From positions 1 through 34,436 of the IMG/VR virus record IMGVR_UViG_3300036859_000494: 34,436 nt of DNA; one strand, written 5' to 3'. Shown here piece after piece: positions 7,415-28,044 of this stretch; position 1 is the first letter of the stretch, and each line of letters begins with the position of its first letter. A program made the translations under genes and the position numbers. Source of the stretch: a virus. The notes below the pieces were generated by a model. The model did no database searches. It was not told the DNA's origin and saw only the letters and a program-made list of their open reading frames with translations.

Positions 7415-7438
7415 GAATCAACCTGGAAGGAGACCGTA

Positions 7439-9433
7439 GTGGACCACGATTTCGGTGGTTTCGCGACGGCATTCGGCATCAAGTGCTCGGACGGGCGAAC
7501 GATCACGCCCGAAGCGTTCAAGCACATGGACAAGCAGCAGATCCCGCTCGTATGGCAGCACCAGCACAACACCCCGGACAATGTCTTGGGACATGCCACG
7601 CTGGAGCATCGCAAGACGGGGATGTACGCCTACTGCTACTTCAACGATACCGATGCTGCGAAGAGTGCCAGAGCACTCGTGGAGCACAAGGATGTCAATG
7701 CCCTCTCGATCTATGCCACGCAGCTGGTCGAGAAGAACAAGACAGTCCTGCATGGGGAACTGGGCGAGGTCAGTCTCGTTCTCAAAGGCGCCAACAGGGG
7801 CGCCAAGATCGACTATGTTCGTGTCGCTCATGGTTCGGGCGACGAAATGGAGATCGAAACTCTCGATGACGAGGCAATCATTCATTCGGGATTCGAGATC
7901 GAGCTCGTCGTGGAACATGCCGATACGGAAACGTATCAGGATGTTTTCAACACTCTGAACGACAAGCAGAAGGCTCTGTTCGAGGTCATGCTGTCGCAGG
8001 CTCTCGGTTCCGCCAAGCAGTCCGATGACAGCGAGGAGGACAAGGCCGAGGACGACAAGCAGGACGAGGAAACCGACGACAAGAAGACTGACGACGACAA
8101 GTCGGATGTCGAGCACAGCGACAAGGAAGGTACGATGACGCGCAACGTCTTCGAGAACAACAAGGACGCTTCGCCCGAGGACGGCGCGCGTACCGGCTCC
8201 ACGCTCACGCACGCCCAGATGTCCACCATCATCGACGACGCGAAGAAGCTGGGTTCCTTCAAGGAGTCGGTTCTCGCGCACGCGGGCGAGTACGGCATCA
8301 CCAACATCGAGGTCCTGTTTCCCGACGCCCAGGCCATCGACAACAAGCCCGAGTGGATCACGCGCAAGATGGCGTGGGTCGAGGGTGTTCTGAACGGTAC
8401 TCGGAAACTTCCCTTCTCCCGCATCAAGTCGCTCTCGGCGGATCTCACGTTCGAGACGGCGCGAGCCAAGGGTTACATCAAGGGCGATCTGAAGAAGGAG
8501 CAGTTCTTCGCTCTGTCGGCCCGGGAAACCACGCCGAAGACGATCTACAAGAAGCAGAAGCTCGACCGCGACGACATCATCGACATCACGGACTTCGACG
8601 TCGTCGCGTGGCTCTGGGTCGAGATGCGGTTCATGTTGCGTGAGGAGATCGCTCGAGCGATCCTCGTCGGCGACGGTCGCGAGGTCGACGACCCGGACAA
8701 GATCGACGAGACCAAGATCCGCCCGATCGCATTCGACGATCCCTTCTACACCGACGTCGTCAGTGTGCCGGCCAACGTGGATTCCATCGAGCTCGTCGAG
8801 GCGGTTCTGCGGGCCCGGGACAACTACAAGGGCACGGCACCGACTGCCTACATGACCAACGCCGTCATGGTCGACATGCTGCTCGCCAAGGACAGTCTCC
8901 GCCGGCGCTACTACAACACCAAGGCCGATCTGGCCTCGGCGCTGGGCGTCACCGAGATCGTCGAGGTTCCGATCATGGAGGGTGTCGAGCGTGACGGCGC
9001 CGAAGTCCTCATGATCATCGTCAATCTGTCGGACTACGCTGTCGGCTCCACCCGGGGTGGCGAGATCACCACGTTCGACGATTTCGACATCGACTACAAC
9101 CAGTACAAGTACCTGATCGAGGGTCGCATGTCCGGTGCTCTGACCCAGCACAAGCGGGCCCAGATCATCACGCGCGGCGCGGGCACGCTCGCGACCCCGA
9201 CGGTTCCGACCTTCGTGTCGGGCACTGGCGTCATCACCATTCCGACGGTCACGGGCGTCACCTACAAGACCCAGGAGACGGGTCCGCTGGGCGCCGCGGG
9301 TACCACCCTTTCGGCGGGTGCCCAGACCGCCCTGACCGCCGGTCAGTCGCAGTCGATCATGGCCGTCCCGAACACCGGCTACTACTTCCCGCACAACTTC
9401 GACGCCGACTGGGTCTTCACGCGTCCTGCGTAA
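7439..9433 (+). CDS. Fused prohead protease, scaffold and major capsid protein
   Basis: A 664-residue polyprotein. Residues 1 to about 150 are an HK97-type prohead protease: VWQHQHN supplies the catalytic His (41 or 43) and ALSIYA the Ser (Ser90). A helical region and a very acidic Asp/Lys-rich linker (about 196-231) resemble a scaffold or delta domain. Residues 233 to about 580 are an HK97-fold capsid subunit. Residues 586-664 are an extra beta domain shared with the major tail protein at 10062. The GTG at 7439 has AAGGAGA five bases upstream. An in-frame ATG at 8135 with its own AAGGAAGG lies exactly at the protease/capsid boundary, and codons become much more C-ending after it. The capsid protein is therefore probably also made alone. 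Confidence 0.88.
   Translation: MDHDFGGFATAFGIKCSDGRTITPEAFKHMDKQQIPLVWQHQHNTPDNVLGHATLEHRKTGMYAYCYFNDTDAAKSARALVEHKDVNALSIYATQLVEKNKTVLHGELGEVSLVLKGANRGAKIDYVRVAHGSGDEMEIETLDDEAIIHSGFEIELVVEHADTETYQDVFNTLNDKQKALFEVMLSQALGSAKQSDDSEEDKAEDDKQDEETDDKKTDDDKSDVEHSDKEGTMTRNVFENNKDASPEDGARTGSTLTHAQMSTIIDDAKKLGSFKESVLAHAGEYGITNIEVLFPDAQAIDNKPEWITRKMAWVEGVLNGTRKLPFSRIKSLSADLTFETARAKGYIKGDLKKEQFFALSARETTPKTIYKKQKLDRDDIIDITDFDVVAWLWVEMRFMLREEIARAILVGDGREVDDPDKIDETKIRPIAFDDPFYTDVVSVPANVDSIELVEAVLRARDNYKGTAPTAYMTNAVMVDMLLAKDSLRRRYYNTKADLASALGVTEIVEVPIMEGVERDGAEVLMIIVNLSDYAVGSTRGGEITTFDDFDIDYNQYKYLIEGRMSGALTQHKRAQIITRGAGTLATPTVPTFVSGTGVITIPTVTGVTYKTQETGPLGAAGTTLSAGAQTALTAGQSQSIMAVPNTGYYFPHNFDADWVFTRPA
8121..8137 (+). 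promoter_or_regulatory. Internal ribosome-binding site and ATG for the free capsid protein
   Basis: AAGGAAGG at 8123-8130 is followed four bases later by an in-frame ATG at 8135 inside the protease-capsid gene. Translation from here gives a 432-residue protein starting MTRNVFENN, the expected size of a mature capsid subunit. Internal starts that yield excess structural protein from a protease fusion are known in phage lambda (C/Nu3). Assignment here rests on the site, the domain boundary and the codon shift. Confidence 0.5.
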
Positions 9434-10061: not shown

Positions 10062-10949
10062 ATGGCAGTCCTGACATGGGACCAGACTGGCGAGCGTATG
10101 TACGAAACCGGCGTCGATCACGGTGTCCTCTACCAGATCGATGAGACCGGCGAGTACGTCGATGGTGTGGCCTGGAACGGTCTCACGACCGTCACCGAGT
10201 CGCCATCGGGCGCGGAAGCCAATCCGCAGTATGCGGACAACATCAAGTACCTGAACCTCATCTCGACCGAACTCTTCGGGTGCACGATCGAGGCGTACTA
10301 CTACCCGCCGGAGTTCGAGCAGAACGACGGATCCGCTTCCCCAACCCCGGGTCTGAGTGTCGGCCAGCAGCCCCGCAAGCCGTTCGGTTTCTGCTACCGG
10401 ACGCTGAAGGGCAACGACACGGAGGGCAACGCTCACGGCTTCAAGCTCCACCTGGTGTGGGGCGCTCTCGCCGCCCCTTCGGAGAAGGCCTACGCGACGG
10501 TGAGTGACTCGCCCGAGGCGATCACGTTCTCCTGGGAGGTCACTACCACTCCACTCGCCGTCGGTACCGTCCTGGGCACTCCGTACGCGCCCACGGCCAG
10601 CATGACCATCGACAGCACGAAGGTCGATCCGGCCAAGTTGGCCATTCTGGAGTCCTATCTGTATGGGACGGTGTCCGAGGCTCCTTCGATGCCATCTCCG
10701 GCGGACGTGATCACGATCCTGGCCTCGGCGCTGACTCTGGCCACGCCGACGGCACCCACCTACAGCTCGTCGACCGATCTCATCACCATCCCGACGATCA
10801 CTGGTGTCGAGTACTACATCGACGGCAACCTCGTTCCGCCGGGTGACTTCGGACCGATCACGGCGAACAAGCTGGTTCGTGCTCGGCCGGCTTCGGGCTA
10901 CAAGTTCCCGACGCCCGTCCAGGACGAGTGGCTCATCACCTTCGCCTAG
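10062..10949 (+). CDS. Major tail protein with an added C-terminal beta domain
   Basis: A 295-residue tail tube subunit. Residues 1 to about 225 form the tube domain (TWDQTGERMYETGVDHGVLY, EFEQNDGS, RKPFGFCYRT, SPEAITFSWEV). Residues 228-295 are a separate beta domain (TPTAPTYSS, ITIPTITGVEY, RPASGYKFPT, EWLITF) that clearly matches the end of the capsid protein, and so probably decorates the outside of the tube. Codons are strongly C-ending, like the capsid gene and unlike the neighbours, as expected for a very abundant protein. A shorter paralogue lies at 11508. Confidence 0.85.
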   Translation: MAVLTWDQTGERMYETGVDHGVLYQIDETGEYVDGVAWNGLTTVTESPSGAEANPQYADNIKYLNLISTELFGCTIEAYYYPPEFEQNDGSASPTPGLSVGQQPRKPFGFCYRTLKGNDTEGNAHGFKLHLVWGALAAPSEKAYATVSDSPEAITFSWEVTTTPLAVGTVLGTPYAPTASMTIDSTKVDPAKLAILESYLYGTVSEAPSMPSPADVITILASALTLATPTAPTYSSSTDLITIPTITGVEYYIDGNLVPPGDFGPITANKLVRARPASGYKFPTPVQDEWLITFA

Positions 10950-11498: not shown

Positions 11499-11507
11499 GG
11501 AGGTGTG

Positions 11508-12257
11508 ATGACGAGAATTAGCTGGTCTCAAAATGGAGAACGCTATTTTGAGGCTGGAATCGATCGCGGTGTGCTCTACATTGACGATGATCCAGGGATT
11601 CCTTGGGTTGGTTTAGTGAATTTCAACAAACAACAGTCGGGTGGAGAATCCACACCTCGATATCTCGATGGAATCAAGATCAGCAATAGAGCATCTCCCG
11701 AGAATTTTGAAGGAACATTGGATGCCTATGCGTATCCCCCTCAATTTGAACAATGCGATGGCACATCGCGTTTTCAGCATGGTCTGAGAATCACGCAGCA
11801 GCGTCGAAAGCCTTTCGGCATGGTTTTCCGCACCAAGATCGGTAATGAAATTGCTGGTCTGGAGAAAGCGTACAAACTTCATATTCTTTACAATTTGAAA
11901 GCGGAACCCTCAACTCGCGGATATCGAACATTGGTCGATCAAAATGAGCCTATGACACTCAGTTGGAAAATCACGTCTCGACCGGAAAGAATCTCGGGAT
12001 TTCGACCTGCAGCTTATTTCATCATCGATTCGAGAGACATTCCTGCGGAGTTGCTCACGCAATTGGAGGATCTCTTCTATGGTACGGAAACCACAGAAGC
12101 AACTCTTCCTACGGCAGGAGAGCTCATGTTCTTGTTCGATTCCTATTTGGACATGATCTATGATGCAGGGACACCTTTCACTGCCGTATTCGCTACTTAC
12201 GATGCTGGTACACCGTCAACACCCGTTGACGCAACGATAGATGGAGGTGCGCTGTAA
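11508..12257 (+). CDS. Second major-tail-protein paralogue
   Basis: A 249-residue paralogue of the protein at 10062 with the same landmarks in order: WSQNGERYFEAGIDRGVLY, PPQFEQCDGT, QQRRKPFGMVFRT, YKLHILYNLKAEPS and PMTLSWKITSRPE. It lacks the capsid-like beta domain and instead ends in an irregular repeat with YDAGTP twice and DGG near the end. Its codon use is ordinary, so it is probably made in smaller amounts, perhaps as a tail-tube variant, a tube end, or a tail decoration. ATG 11508 has AGGGAGGT only three bases upstream; GTG 11505 is the alternative. Confidence 0.7.
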   Translation: MTRISWSQNGERYFEAGIDRGVLYIDDDPGIPWVGLVNFNKQQSGGESTPRYLDGIKISNRASPENFEGTLDAYAYPPQFEQCDGTSRFQHGLRITQQRRKPFGMVFRTKIGNEIAGLEKAYKLHILYNLKAEPSTRGYRTLVDQNEPMTLSWKITSRPERISGFRPAAYFIIDSRDIPAELLTQLEDLFYGTETTEATLPTAGELMFLFDSYLDMIYDAGTPFTAVFATYDAGTPSTPVDATIDGGAL

Positions 12258-24505: not shown

Positions 24506-24737
24506 GCTCGATCCCTGGATGTGGTTTGTCATCATCCTCTTCGGGATACTGTGCGTGACCGTGATCGTTCTCGGATTTCTGGGAAGGCGTCGTGATCTCG
24601 CGAAGATGAAGTCGGAAATGCCGGAACTCCCCCCTGTTCCGGGATCCACCGAATGGACAACTGAATTGCTGAAGCAGCGAGACGATCGAATCATGGAGGT
24701 GATCAATGGCGATCAAGACGGTATTCAGCGCAGCTGA
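24498..24737 (+). CDS. Small single-helix membrane protein
   Basis: A 79-residue protein with an N-terminal membrane helix (WMWFVIILFGILCVTVIVLG), then a basic patch (RRRDLAKMK) and a polar, Pro-containing C-terminus (PELPPVPGSTEW, LLKQRDDRIMEVI). The GTG start overlaps the upstream stop by eight bases, and its end overlaps the next gene by 32. Tight coupling with the flanking membrane-protein genes suggests that the three work together at the membrane. The family is not recognised. Confidence 0.65.
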   Translation: MPELDPWMWFVIILFGILCVTVIVLGFLGRRRDLAKMKSEMPELPPVPGSTEWTTELLKQRDDRIMEVINGDQDGIQRS

Positions 24738-25482
24738 GAAATTTGTCGTCGACAACTCCCCCGGGATCCTGACGGGTCTCGGGGTAGCGGGTGCGGTGAC
24801 GACCGTGATCCTGACGGGGCGTGCGGCATGGCAGGCTGGTATGGACGCCAGCACGCAGTACCACGAGGCGCTGCGAGAAGGCGAGCCACTTCCGGAGCAT
24901 TTGCTGGAGACCGGTCATCTCGTCAAAACCTATTGGCGAGGATTCATCCCCGCGGGGATCTCCGGCGTGACCACCATCACCTGCATCATCGCCGCCAATC
25001 ACATCGGTGCGCGCAGGACGGCAGCCATCGCCGCGGCCTTCAGACTCTCGGAGAAGTTGACCGAGGAATACAAGGATCGCGTCGTGAAAGCACTCGGATC
25101 CCAGAAAGAAGAGAAGATGCGCTCCGAACTCACGAAAGAGCGCATGGAGAAAGCAGGGATTCCGGACAACATCATCATCGTGGGATCCGAGGTGTTGTTC
25201 TACGACGAACTGTCGGGACGGTTCTTCAAGAACGACATGGAGACCATTCGCAAAGCCGTCAATGATATCAATCATCAGGTCAACAATTTCTTCTCGGCAT
25301 CCCTGACCGATTTCTATGAAGCGATTGGGTTATCACCCACATCGTTCTCGGATGAAGTCGGATGGAATACGGACGAACTGCTCGACATCAAATTCTCGGC
25401 AACACTGCTCGATGGGAGTCGTCCGGCCATCGGTATCACGATCAACACATCACCAGTTCGCGGTTACGACCGCGTACAGTAG
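24706..25482 (+). CDS. DUF6353-like phage membrane protein
   Basis: A 258-residue protein with an N-terminal membrane part, NSPGILTGLGVAGAVTTVIL as the first helix and IPAGISGVTTITCIIAANHI as the second. A helical, charged stretch follows (LSEKLTEEYKDRVVKALG), then a soluble C-terminal domain (FFSASLTDFYEAIGLSP, VGWNTDELLDIKFSATL). This order matches phage proteins grouped as DUF6353, with no known function. A longer relative lies at 27145. GGAGGTGAT precedes the ATG, which overlaps the gene before it. Both helices together with the cytoplasmic domain suggest a membrane-bound phage factor. Confidence 0.7.
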   Translation: MAIKTVFSAAEKFVVDNSPGILTGLGVAGAVTTVILTGRAAWQAGMDASTQYHEALREGEPLPEHLLETGHLVKTYWRGFIPAGISGVTTITCIIAANHIGARRTAAIAAAFRLSEKLTEEYKDRVVKALGSQKEEKMRSELTKERMEKAGIPDNIIIVGSEVLFYDELSGRFFKNDMETIRKAVNDINHQVNNFFSASLTDFYEAIGLSPTSFSDEVGWNTDELLDIKFSATLLDGSRPAIGITINTSPVRGYDRVQ

Positions 25483-27144: not shown

Positions 27145-28044
27145 ATGACACTGATTCCCCCAACGGTCGCGAGCAAACTCGCCCGTCCGCTCCTGCATCT
27201 GCGGAAGCAATCTCCCCAAGTGATGTTCGCCGGTGGTGTTCTCGCCGCGGTGGGCTCAACCGTCCTGGCCTGCCGTGCCACCCTGAAACTCAGCGACGTC
27301 CTGTCTGAGACGGAGGAGCTCAAGGACAAAGCCGCCGCGATGGTCGGTGAGCGCGCCGATTACACCGAGAAGGAGTACAACCACGATCTGTTCGTCCTGA
27401 AGATCAAGACCGTCCTGAACATCACGAAGCTCTACGCGCCGTCGGCCGGCCTGATGGCGTTGTCATTGTCGCTCCTCACGGGATCCCATATCACCCTGAA
27501 TCGTCGGAACGCGAGTCTCACGGCAGCCTACGCGACGGTGGATCAGGCCTTCGAGAAGTACCGTCAGCGTGTCGTGGCGCAGCTGGGTATCGATGCGGAC
27601 CGAGACTTCCGGTACGGTACCGAGGTCGTCAGCGAGACCGTGGAAGGCGAGGACGGCAAGAAGAAGACGGTCAAGCACACGCGGGTCGACTCCAGCGAGG
27701 GCCCGTCGATGTACGCACGCTTCTTCGACGAGATGTGCAACGACTGGAAGAGGAATCCGGAATACAACCGCGCATTCCTACACTGCCAGCAGAACTTCGC
27801 GAACGAGAAGCTGAAGATCAATGGGCATATCTTCCTCAACGAGGTTTACGACGCGCTCGGGATCCCGAGGTCCAAGGAGGGCGCGATCGTCGGATGGGTG
27901 CTGGATGGCAACGGCGATGGCTTCGTCGACTTCGGTATCTTCGACGACTTGACCAATCCGCGTGTCCGGGACTTCGTCAACGGCCGGGAGTACTCGATCC
28001 TGTTGGACTTCAACGTCGACGGCGTCATCTACGACAAGATTTGA
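27145..28044 (+). CDS. Second DUF6353-like phage membrane protein
   Basis: A 299-residue relative of the protein at 24706. Two membrane stretches (SPQVMFAGGVLAAVGSTVLA and LYAPSAGLMALSLSLLTGSH) are followed by the conserved SLTAAYATVDQAFEKYRQRV, a middle with MYARFFDEMCNDWKRNPEYN, and the C-terminal domain FLNEVYDALGIPRSKEGAIV, VGWVLDGNGDGFVDFGIFDD, RDFVNGREYSILLDFNVDGV. The C-terminal FLNEVYDALG-VGWV-LLDFNVDG set is the most conserved part and corresponds to DFYEAIGLSP-VGWN-DIKF in the shorter protein. The function is unknown. AAGGACA precedes the ATG. Codon use is strongly C-ending, suggesting a well-expressed protein. Confidence 0.7.
   Translation: MTLIPPTVASKLARPLLHLRKQSPQVMFAGGVLAAVGSTVLACRATLKLSDVLSETEELKDKAAAMVGERADYTEKEYNHDLFVLKIKTVLNITKLYAPSAGLMALSLSLLTGSHITLNRRNASLTAAYATVDQAFEKYRQRVVAQLGIDADRDFRYGTEVVSETVEGEDGKKKTVKHTRVDSSEGPSMYARFFDEMCNDWKRNPEYNRAFLHCQQNFANEKLKINGHIFLNEVYDALGIPRSKEGAIVGWVLDGNGDGFVDFGIFDDLTNPRVRDFVNGREYSILLDFNVDGVIYDKI

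Follow-up and report, generated by a model that had tools for sequence, protein, structure and literature searches.

The protease-capsid fusion gene of this virus is probably two genes nested in one reading frame. Our window comprises 34,436 nucleotides (IMG/VR record IMGVR_UViG_3300036859_000494, positions 1 to 34,436), and within it a single open reading frame joins a prohead protease to an HK97-fold capsid domain, with an in-frame internal start codon that is kept in every intact member of its family examined. From the comparison of these sequences we put at roughly 0.83 the probability that the short product initiated at this codon is the major capsid protein, and that the full-length product is a minor, protease-carrying subunit.

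The fusion frame (7439..9433, + strand, 664 aa) opens with GTG, closes with TAA and is unbroken between them. It belongs to PHROG_3270, a family of protease-capsid fusions whose profile it matches at full length (E 2.2e-212, protein residues 2-612 against profile positions 4-601 of 603). Residues 1-127 (7439..7819, +) form a prohead protease domain of the S78/HK97 type, modeled mostly at pLDDT >85; Pfam Peptidase_S78 (PF04586) covers residues 7-127 at 34.5 bits, above the curated cut-off of 21, and the NCBIfam equivalog TIGR01543 scores 36 on the fusion protein, below its own cut-off of 59. H41, S90 and E110, which we take to be the catalytic residues, occupy invariant columns of our alignment (A1). 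Between protease and linker lies a conserved helical segment (residues 166-190; 7934..8008, +), apparent in the A1 consensus and as helices 166-170 and 175-190 of the model, and it is followed by a variable acidic linker (residues 190-232; 8006..8134, +) that is predicted to be disordered and carries indels in relatives. The AlphaFold2 model of the fusion, built from a 59-sequence alignment, is of moderate confidence overall (mean pLDDT 74.7, pTM 0.49), with pLDDT <50 across residues 190-253, a stretch that includes residue 233. Residues ~296-583 (8324..9187, +) are predicted to form an HK97-fold capsid core, with VIA-align Z scores of 13-16 to many HK97-fold capsids. Model residues ~296-581 align with HK97 gp5 (1ohg) at Z 14.7 and rmsd 4.0 over 227 residues, and many other HK97-fold chains matched, which places the C-terminal half among the HK97-fold major capsid proteins. 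A sequence search of solved structures returned no credible relative, its six matches being at chance level (E 0.09 or worse). The first-pass annotation had described a fusion of protease, scaffold and capsid; the protease and capsid domains are borne out here, the scaffold as a third domain less so.

The fusion gene has a portal gene on one side and a small conserved gene on the other; the gene for the major tail protein (10062..10949, +; PHROG_2645) is slightly further on. Past the HK97 fold, the fusion protein continues into a C-terminal beta domain (9191..9430, +) in common with the major tail protein: the second match of the fusion protein in the window, at 10659-10940, is the C-terminal part of that protein, at 41% identity. 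A second, downstream reading frame matching the fusion protein occurs in 12 of 80 relatives. PHROG_2645 is matched by two genes of the window, the one at 10062-10949 and another at 11505-12257, the latter without the GC3-rich codon use of the former (0.42 vs 0.82). Farther along, the genes at 24706-25482 and 27145-28044 both match Pfam DUF6353, a family of unknown function, and the second of them has a capsid-like GC3 of 0.83, which suggests high expression.

The internal start is an ATG at 8135..8137 (+), residue 233 of the fusion. As the first-pass annotation had read from the sequence, it is in frame and preceded by a Shine-Dalgarno-like element, AAGGAAGG (8123..8130, +), whose AAGGA ends 7 nt, and whose last G lies 4 nt, before the ATG. 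The full-length start has a ribosome-binding-site-like sequence as well, GGAAGGAG (7425..7432, +). A gene beginning at the internal ATG (8135..9433, +) would encode a major capsid protein of 432 aa. This ATG had been thought to mark the end of the linker and the start of the capsid domain. The linker does precede it, but the codon still lies within the predicted disordered stretch, ~60 residues N-terminal of the HK97 core, so that the short product would retain a conserved N-terminal extension. Codon use after 8135 does resemble that of the major tail gene, as had been noticed: GC3 is 0.75 before the codon and 0.88 after it, compared with 0.82 in the major tail, 0.56 in the portal and 0.50 in the TerL gene. 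Within the window, however, GC3 drops over residues ~100-180 and has reached a high value by the acidic linker, and a change-point fit to this one sequence ends at the limit of its range (-60) and does not place the break at 8135. Because AGGA, GAGG or GGAG lies upstream of 4 of the 23 in-frame start codons in the window, and because the codon break is not located there, the window alone is suggestive only, and it is the relatives that decide.

We compared two sets of relatives. Set 1 comprises 99 ORFs: that of the window, those of 80 viral contigs (the best 80 of at least 600 matches in a viral scan, with the match within an open frame in 80 of 80) and those of 18 phage records, from named or fecal phages. 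The fusion has matches in 260 of 50,697 phage records, and in 240 of these the match covers 80% or more of the query; 20 of the 260 were examined, of which 18 were fused and 2 unfused. Set 2, mostly gut phages and AT-richer than set 1, was found with Faecalibacterium and Lactococcus phage proteins (the best 80 of at least 600 matches, plus 22 from another scan) and holds 101 loci, 100 of them intact fusions, with one fragment (L217) excluded. Some contigs are duplicates, and L199 is 98% identical to CHPC971; dereplication left 84 of the 99 ORFs in set 1 and 79 of the 100 in set 2. Anchors were placed by hand in P092, Teacup and L088 of set 1, and L219 of set 2, which lacks the anchor pattern, was positioned by alignment.

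Is the start codon itself conserved? In the set-1 alignment the variable acidic linker is followed by a conserved N-[V]-F-[DE] motif, and the six codons preceding this motif contain exactly one start codon in 99 of 99 ORFs (89 ATG, 8 GTG, 2 TTG; Daddyjeff, FP_oengus, P092 and CHPC971 are among the GTG and TTG phages). A start codon stands at the homologous place in all 100 intact fusions of set 2 (75 with ATG only, 22 with GTG only, 1 with TTG, 1 with ATG and GTG, 1 with two ATG), and L119 and L219 are the two loci with a pair of start codons within the six codons. The start is kept in phages of Arthrobacter, Streptomyces, Gordonia, Rhodococcus, Microbacterium, Curtobacterium, Lactococcus and Faecalibacterium. 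Where the residue is not Met, the codon is nonetheless one that can serve as a start: in dereplicated set 2, Val at this position is GTG in 15 of 15 cases, against a GTG share of 92/649 (~14%) among the other Val codons of the same ORFs (log10 product of shares -13.5), and in dereplicated set 1 the non-Met residue is encoded by GTG or TTG in 9 of 9 (ORF-wide codon shares of 0.14 to 0.29, with one at 0.82; product about 3e-6). Since Val and Leu are always GTG and TTG here, it is the codon that is conserved and not the residue. The relatives have a common ancestry, so these counts are not independent events; despite that ancestry, the silent base varies at other conserved Glu columns.

This distinction bears on the possibility that the fusion is the only product, with the mature capsid protein released by proteolytic cleavage in the linker, as happens in other heads processed by a protease, and the Met and the Glu-Gly before it serving as a cleavage or binding motif. 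HK97-like phages usually cleave their capsid proteins, and the invariance of H41, S90 and E110 in the protease domain agrees with it, but a protein motif gives no reason for Val and Leu to be spelled only as GTG and TTG. Cleavage alone would also leave unexplained the upstream purines, which are constant while the amino acids vary, as well as the codon-usage step and the minimum of structure at the codon (see below), and would need protease and capsid to be produced in equal numbers. We consider it unlikely.

The purine motif upstream of the putative start is conserved as nucleotides while the encoded peptides differ (QEG, KEG, EED, GGN, EGD). In set 1 it is mostly Gln- or Lys-Glu-Gly; set 2 spells it as GAG GAG GAT (Glu-Glu-Asp), GGA GGA AAC (Gly-Gly-Asn) or GAA GGA GAC (Glu-Gly-Asp). 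AGGA, GGAG or GAGG lies at -20..-4 in 78 of 79 set-2 sites, compared with 304 of 1859 other in-frame starts, and the mean anti-SD energy in set 1 is -7.1 kcal/mol, compared with -2.3 at 2159 other in-frame starts. Glu-Gly occurs at the motif in 63 of the 84 dereplicated set-1 ORFs, with GAA as the Glu codon in 63 of 63, whereas Glu-Gly pairs elsewhere in these ORFs use GAA in 79 of 232 cases (Fisher 1e-24); similarly, the Glu column of the motif is 90% GAA, as opposed to 6-59% in 24 other conserved Glu columns. The corresponding Glu codon effects in set 2 are weak (p 0.04 and 0.016).

Against simple expectation, anti-SD pairing is stronger in synonymous shuffles of the set-1 motif than in the motif as it stands (-8.2 vs -7.1 kcal/mol), since GGAGG is among the spellings open to these peptides. 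The real motifs have an aligned spacing of 4-8 nt in 60/84 cases, compared with about 47% of shuffles, and a spacing of 11 in 15/84, compared with 38%; their energy advantage over shuffles at a spacing of 3-8 nt is non-significant (p 0.085). Given the stronger shuffles and this non-significant gain, the motif is not maximized for strength, and we read it, from its sequence, as a moderate, well-spaced site; to see tuning in this, or a way of avoiding pauses in elongation, would be a guess. The strongest SD spelling, GAG GGN, is avoided in 63 of 63, which could fit a different role for the element, such as pausing the ribosome between the domains to aid folding, and SD-like sequences within genes can slow ribosomes, although this is debated. 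Such a pause, however, needs neither a start codon a short way (a few codons) downstream nor lowered mRNA structure there, and we regard it as extremely unlikely. The mRNA structure is in fact weakest at the start: mean folding energy in 50-base stretches is -7.3 kcal/mol at this point, compared with about -10 to -14 kcal/mol on both flanks within 240 bases.

Codon usage changes at the same place. When the 84 ORFs are pooled, with amino-acid content normalized, the switch in usage falls at +2 codons relative to the start (bootstrap 95% 0 to +5), and at -12 to +3 when codons -9 to -1 are left out. In set 1, 83 of 84 ORFs have a higher GC3 downstream of the start than upstream, and 81 of 84 a higher C/(C+T); in set 2, G/(G+A) is about 0.34-0.45 in the bins that precede the motif and about 0.44-0.61 beyond the start. 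The break that had been claimed at 8135 is thus borne out by the pooled family, which puts it at the start, but not by the window alone. A likely cause of the step is codon selection for high expression. The two halves differ in codon usage, and this could also mean that genes with different histories were recently fused or recombined, the ATG being an unused relic of the former capsid start. But relatives with identities of roughly 45-78%, from two composition classes, have both the step and the start, and an unused relic would not persist in 99/99 and 100/100 ORFs, nor would it vary only among ATG, GTG and TTG. We therefore find a recent fusion with a relic start very unlikely.

How might two nested genes work? 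Ribosomes starting from GTG 7439, behind GGAAGGAG, would make a small amount of the protease-linker-capsid protein, and those entering at AAGGAAGG and ATG 8135 would make the bulk of the HK97-fold capsid protein, with its N-terminal extension of ~60 residues. Because the capsid domain is common to both products, the long one could join the shell, where as a minor subunit it would bring the protease into the procapsid, and the protease would there cut its own chain and its neighbors (self-targeting). The arrangement likely arose from adjacent protease and capsid genes whose intervening stop codon was lost, after which the ribosome site and start codon of the capsid gene would have been retained by selection. 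That an internal start yields the extra capsid, as the first-pass annotation had proposed, is strongly supported by the comparison, in which the codon, the purines, the codon-usage step and the mRNA structure all point to initiation at this site.

The proposed arrangement resembles known head genes. In HK97, the gp4 protease and gp5 (delta domain and capsid) come from separate genes, and gp5 is cut in the procapsid; an S78-type protease is likewise followed here by an HK97-fold capsid, but in a single reading frame and with a shorter segment ahead of the core (about 60 residues rather than about 100). In lambda C/Nu3, the protease gene contains an internal in-frame ribosome site, from which a shorter head protein with a common C-terminus is made. 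Mu I/Z and the Mu-like phage PaMx73 also have a protease gene with an internal in-frame ribosome site and a shorter head protein with a common C-terminus, according to PMC4378225. The conserved internal start and ribosome-binding-like sequence within the protease gene suggest that the window holds a nested in-frame head gene of this general kind. Lambda C/Nu3 and Mu I/Z, however, yield as their short product a scaffold that lacks the capsid fold, whereas here the short product is predicted to have the HK97 fold; the nested gene would work like the lambda C/Nu3 type but is outside the protease-scaffold type.

The actinophage capsid-protease fusions (clusters AM, AU and others; PHROG_3270) belong to the same family as the window's fusion, with the same gene order and alignment at full length. 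They are described and annotated as one product, and the portion of PMC5513430 available to us mentions no internal start. The fusion had been called uncommon in the first-pass annotation, which agrees with Klyczek et al. (2017, PMC5513430), who call it unusual in clusters AM and AU and compare it with HK97 and lambda fusions; by the same token, it had already been described. Some members are lengthened: in the Teacup fusion (L099, 1489-3648) the helices that join protease to capsid look, by eye, as if they were repeated about three times, and the Qui fusion is longer still, at 810 aa.

A second protease-capsid fusion family, PHROG_2263, is distinct in sequence and found in small-genome phages (RRH1, Taj14, Pondwater and relatives); 7 of 10 ORFs were assigned to it by best profile, the others being near-identical relatives. 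A junction ATG with a purine motif was seen by eye in 8 of the 10, a small and redundant sample in which 4 of 10 are of one group. The RRH1 junction reads GGAAGGA, nine bases, ATG; for Whytu and EricDab, no junction ATG with a purine motif is among the candidates listed. We treat the PHROG_2263 internal starts as a lead. Two streptococcal phages, Javan26 and IPP5, encode protease and capsid in separate genes side by side, which speaks for the nested-gene reading; only the capsid half is matched in them, at 23-25% identity. Their capsid genes have an ATG after CAG AAA GGT (Javan26, L083, 2791-4053, residue 95; IPP5, L084, 2674-3927, residue 94), at the end of an N-terminal coiled-coil part, possibly an internal start for a capsid protein without that part.

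The protease-capsid fusion and nested protease-scaffold starts are already known; a nested capsid start within the fusion appears to be new, as we did not find it in the literature. No report of it turned up in the open-licence literature, a body that leaves most subscription papers outside, so that an earlier report is possible, and none appears in the portions available of PMC5513430, PMC13313380, PMC6606914, PMC9671004, PMC9753647, PMC12750149, PMC4378225 and PMC10635136. The open-licence literature also yielded no proteomics of Lactococcus phage 1706. Annotation is affected in turn: a nested CDS for the capsid is annotated in 0 of the 17 annotated fusion loci examined.

If the internal start is used, the main product would have its N-terminus some 230-400 residues further downstream than annotated. 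We think there is a good chance that phage protease-capsid fusions generally, in at least two families (PHROG_3270 and PHROG_2263), are two-product nested genes that have kept the ribosome site of a once-separate capsid gene. If this general reading is true, the annotated fusion would be a minor, self-targeting protease subunit, and the true major capsid protein would be unannotated in hundreds of records. Nested starts would also suggest how one protease-capsid gene can supply capsid in large excess over protease, and how genes may fuse by a simple route without losing their separate dosage.
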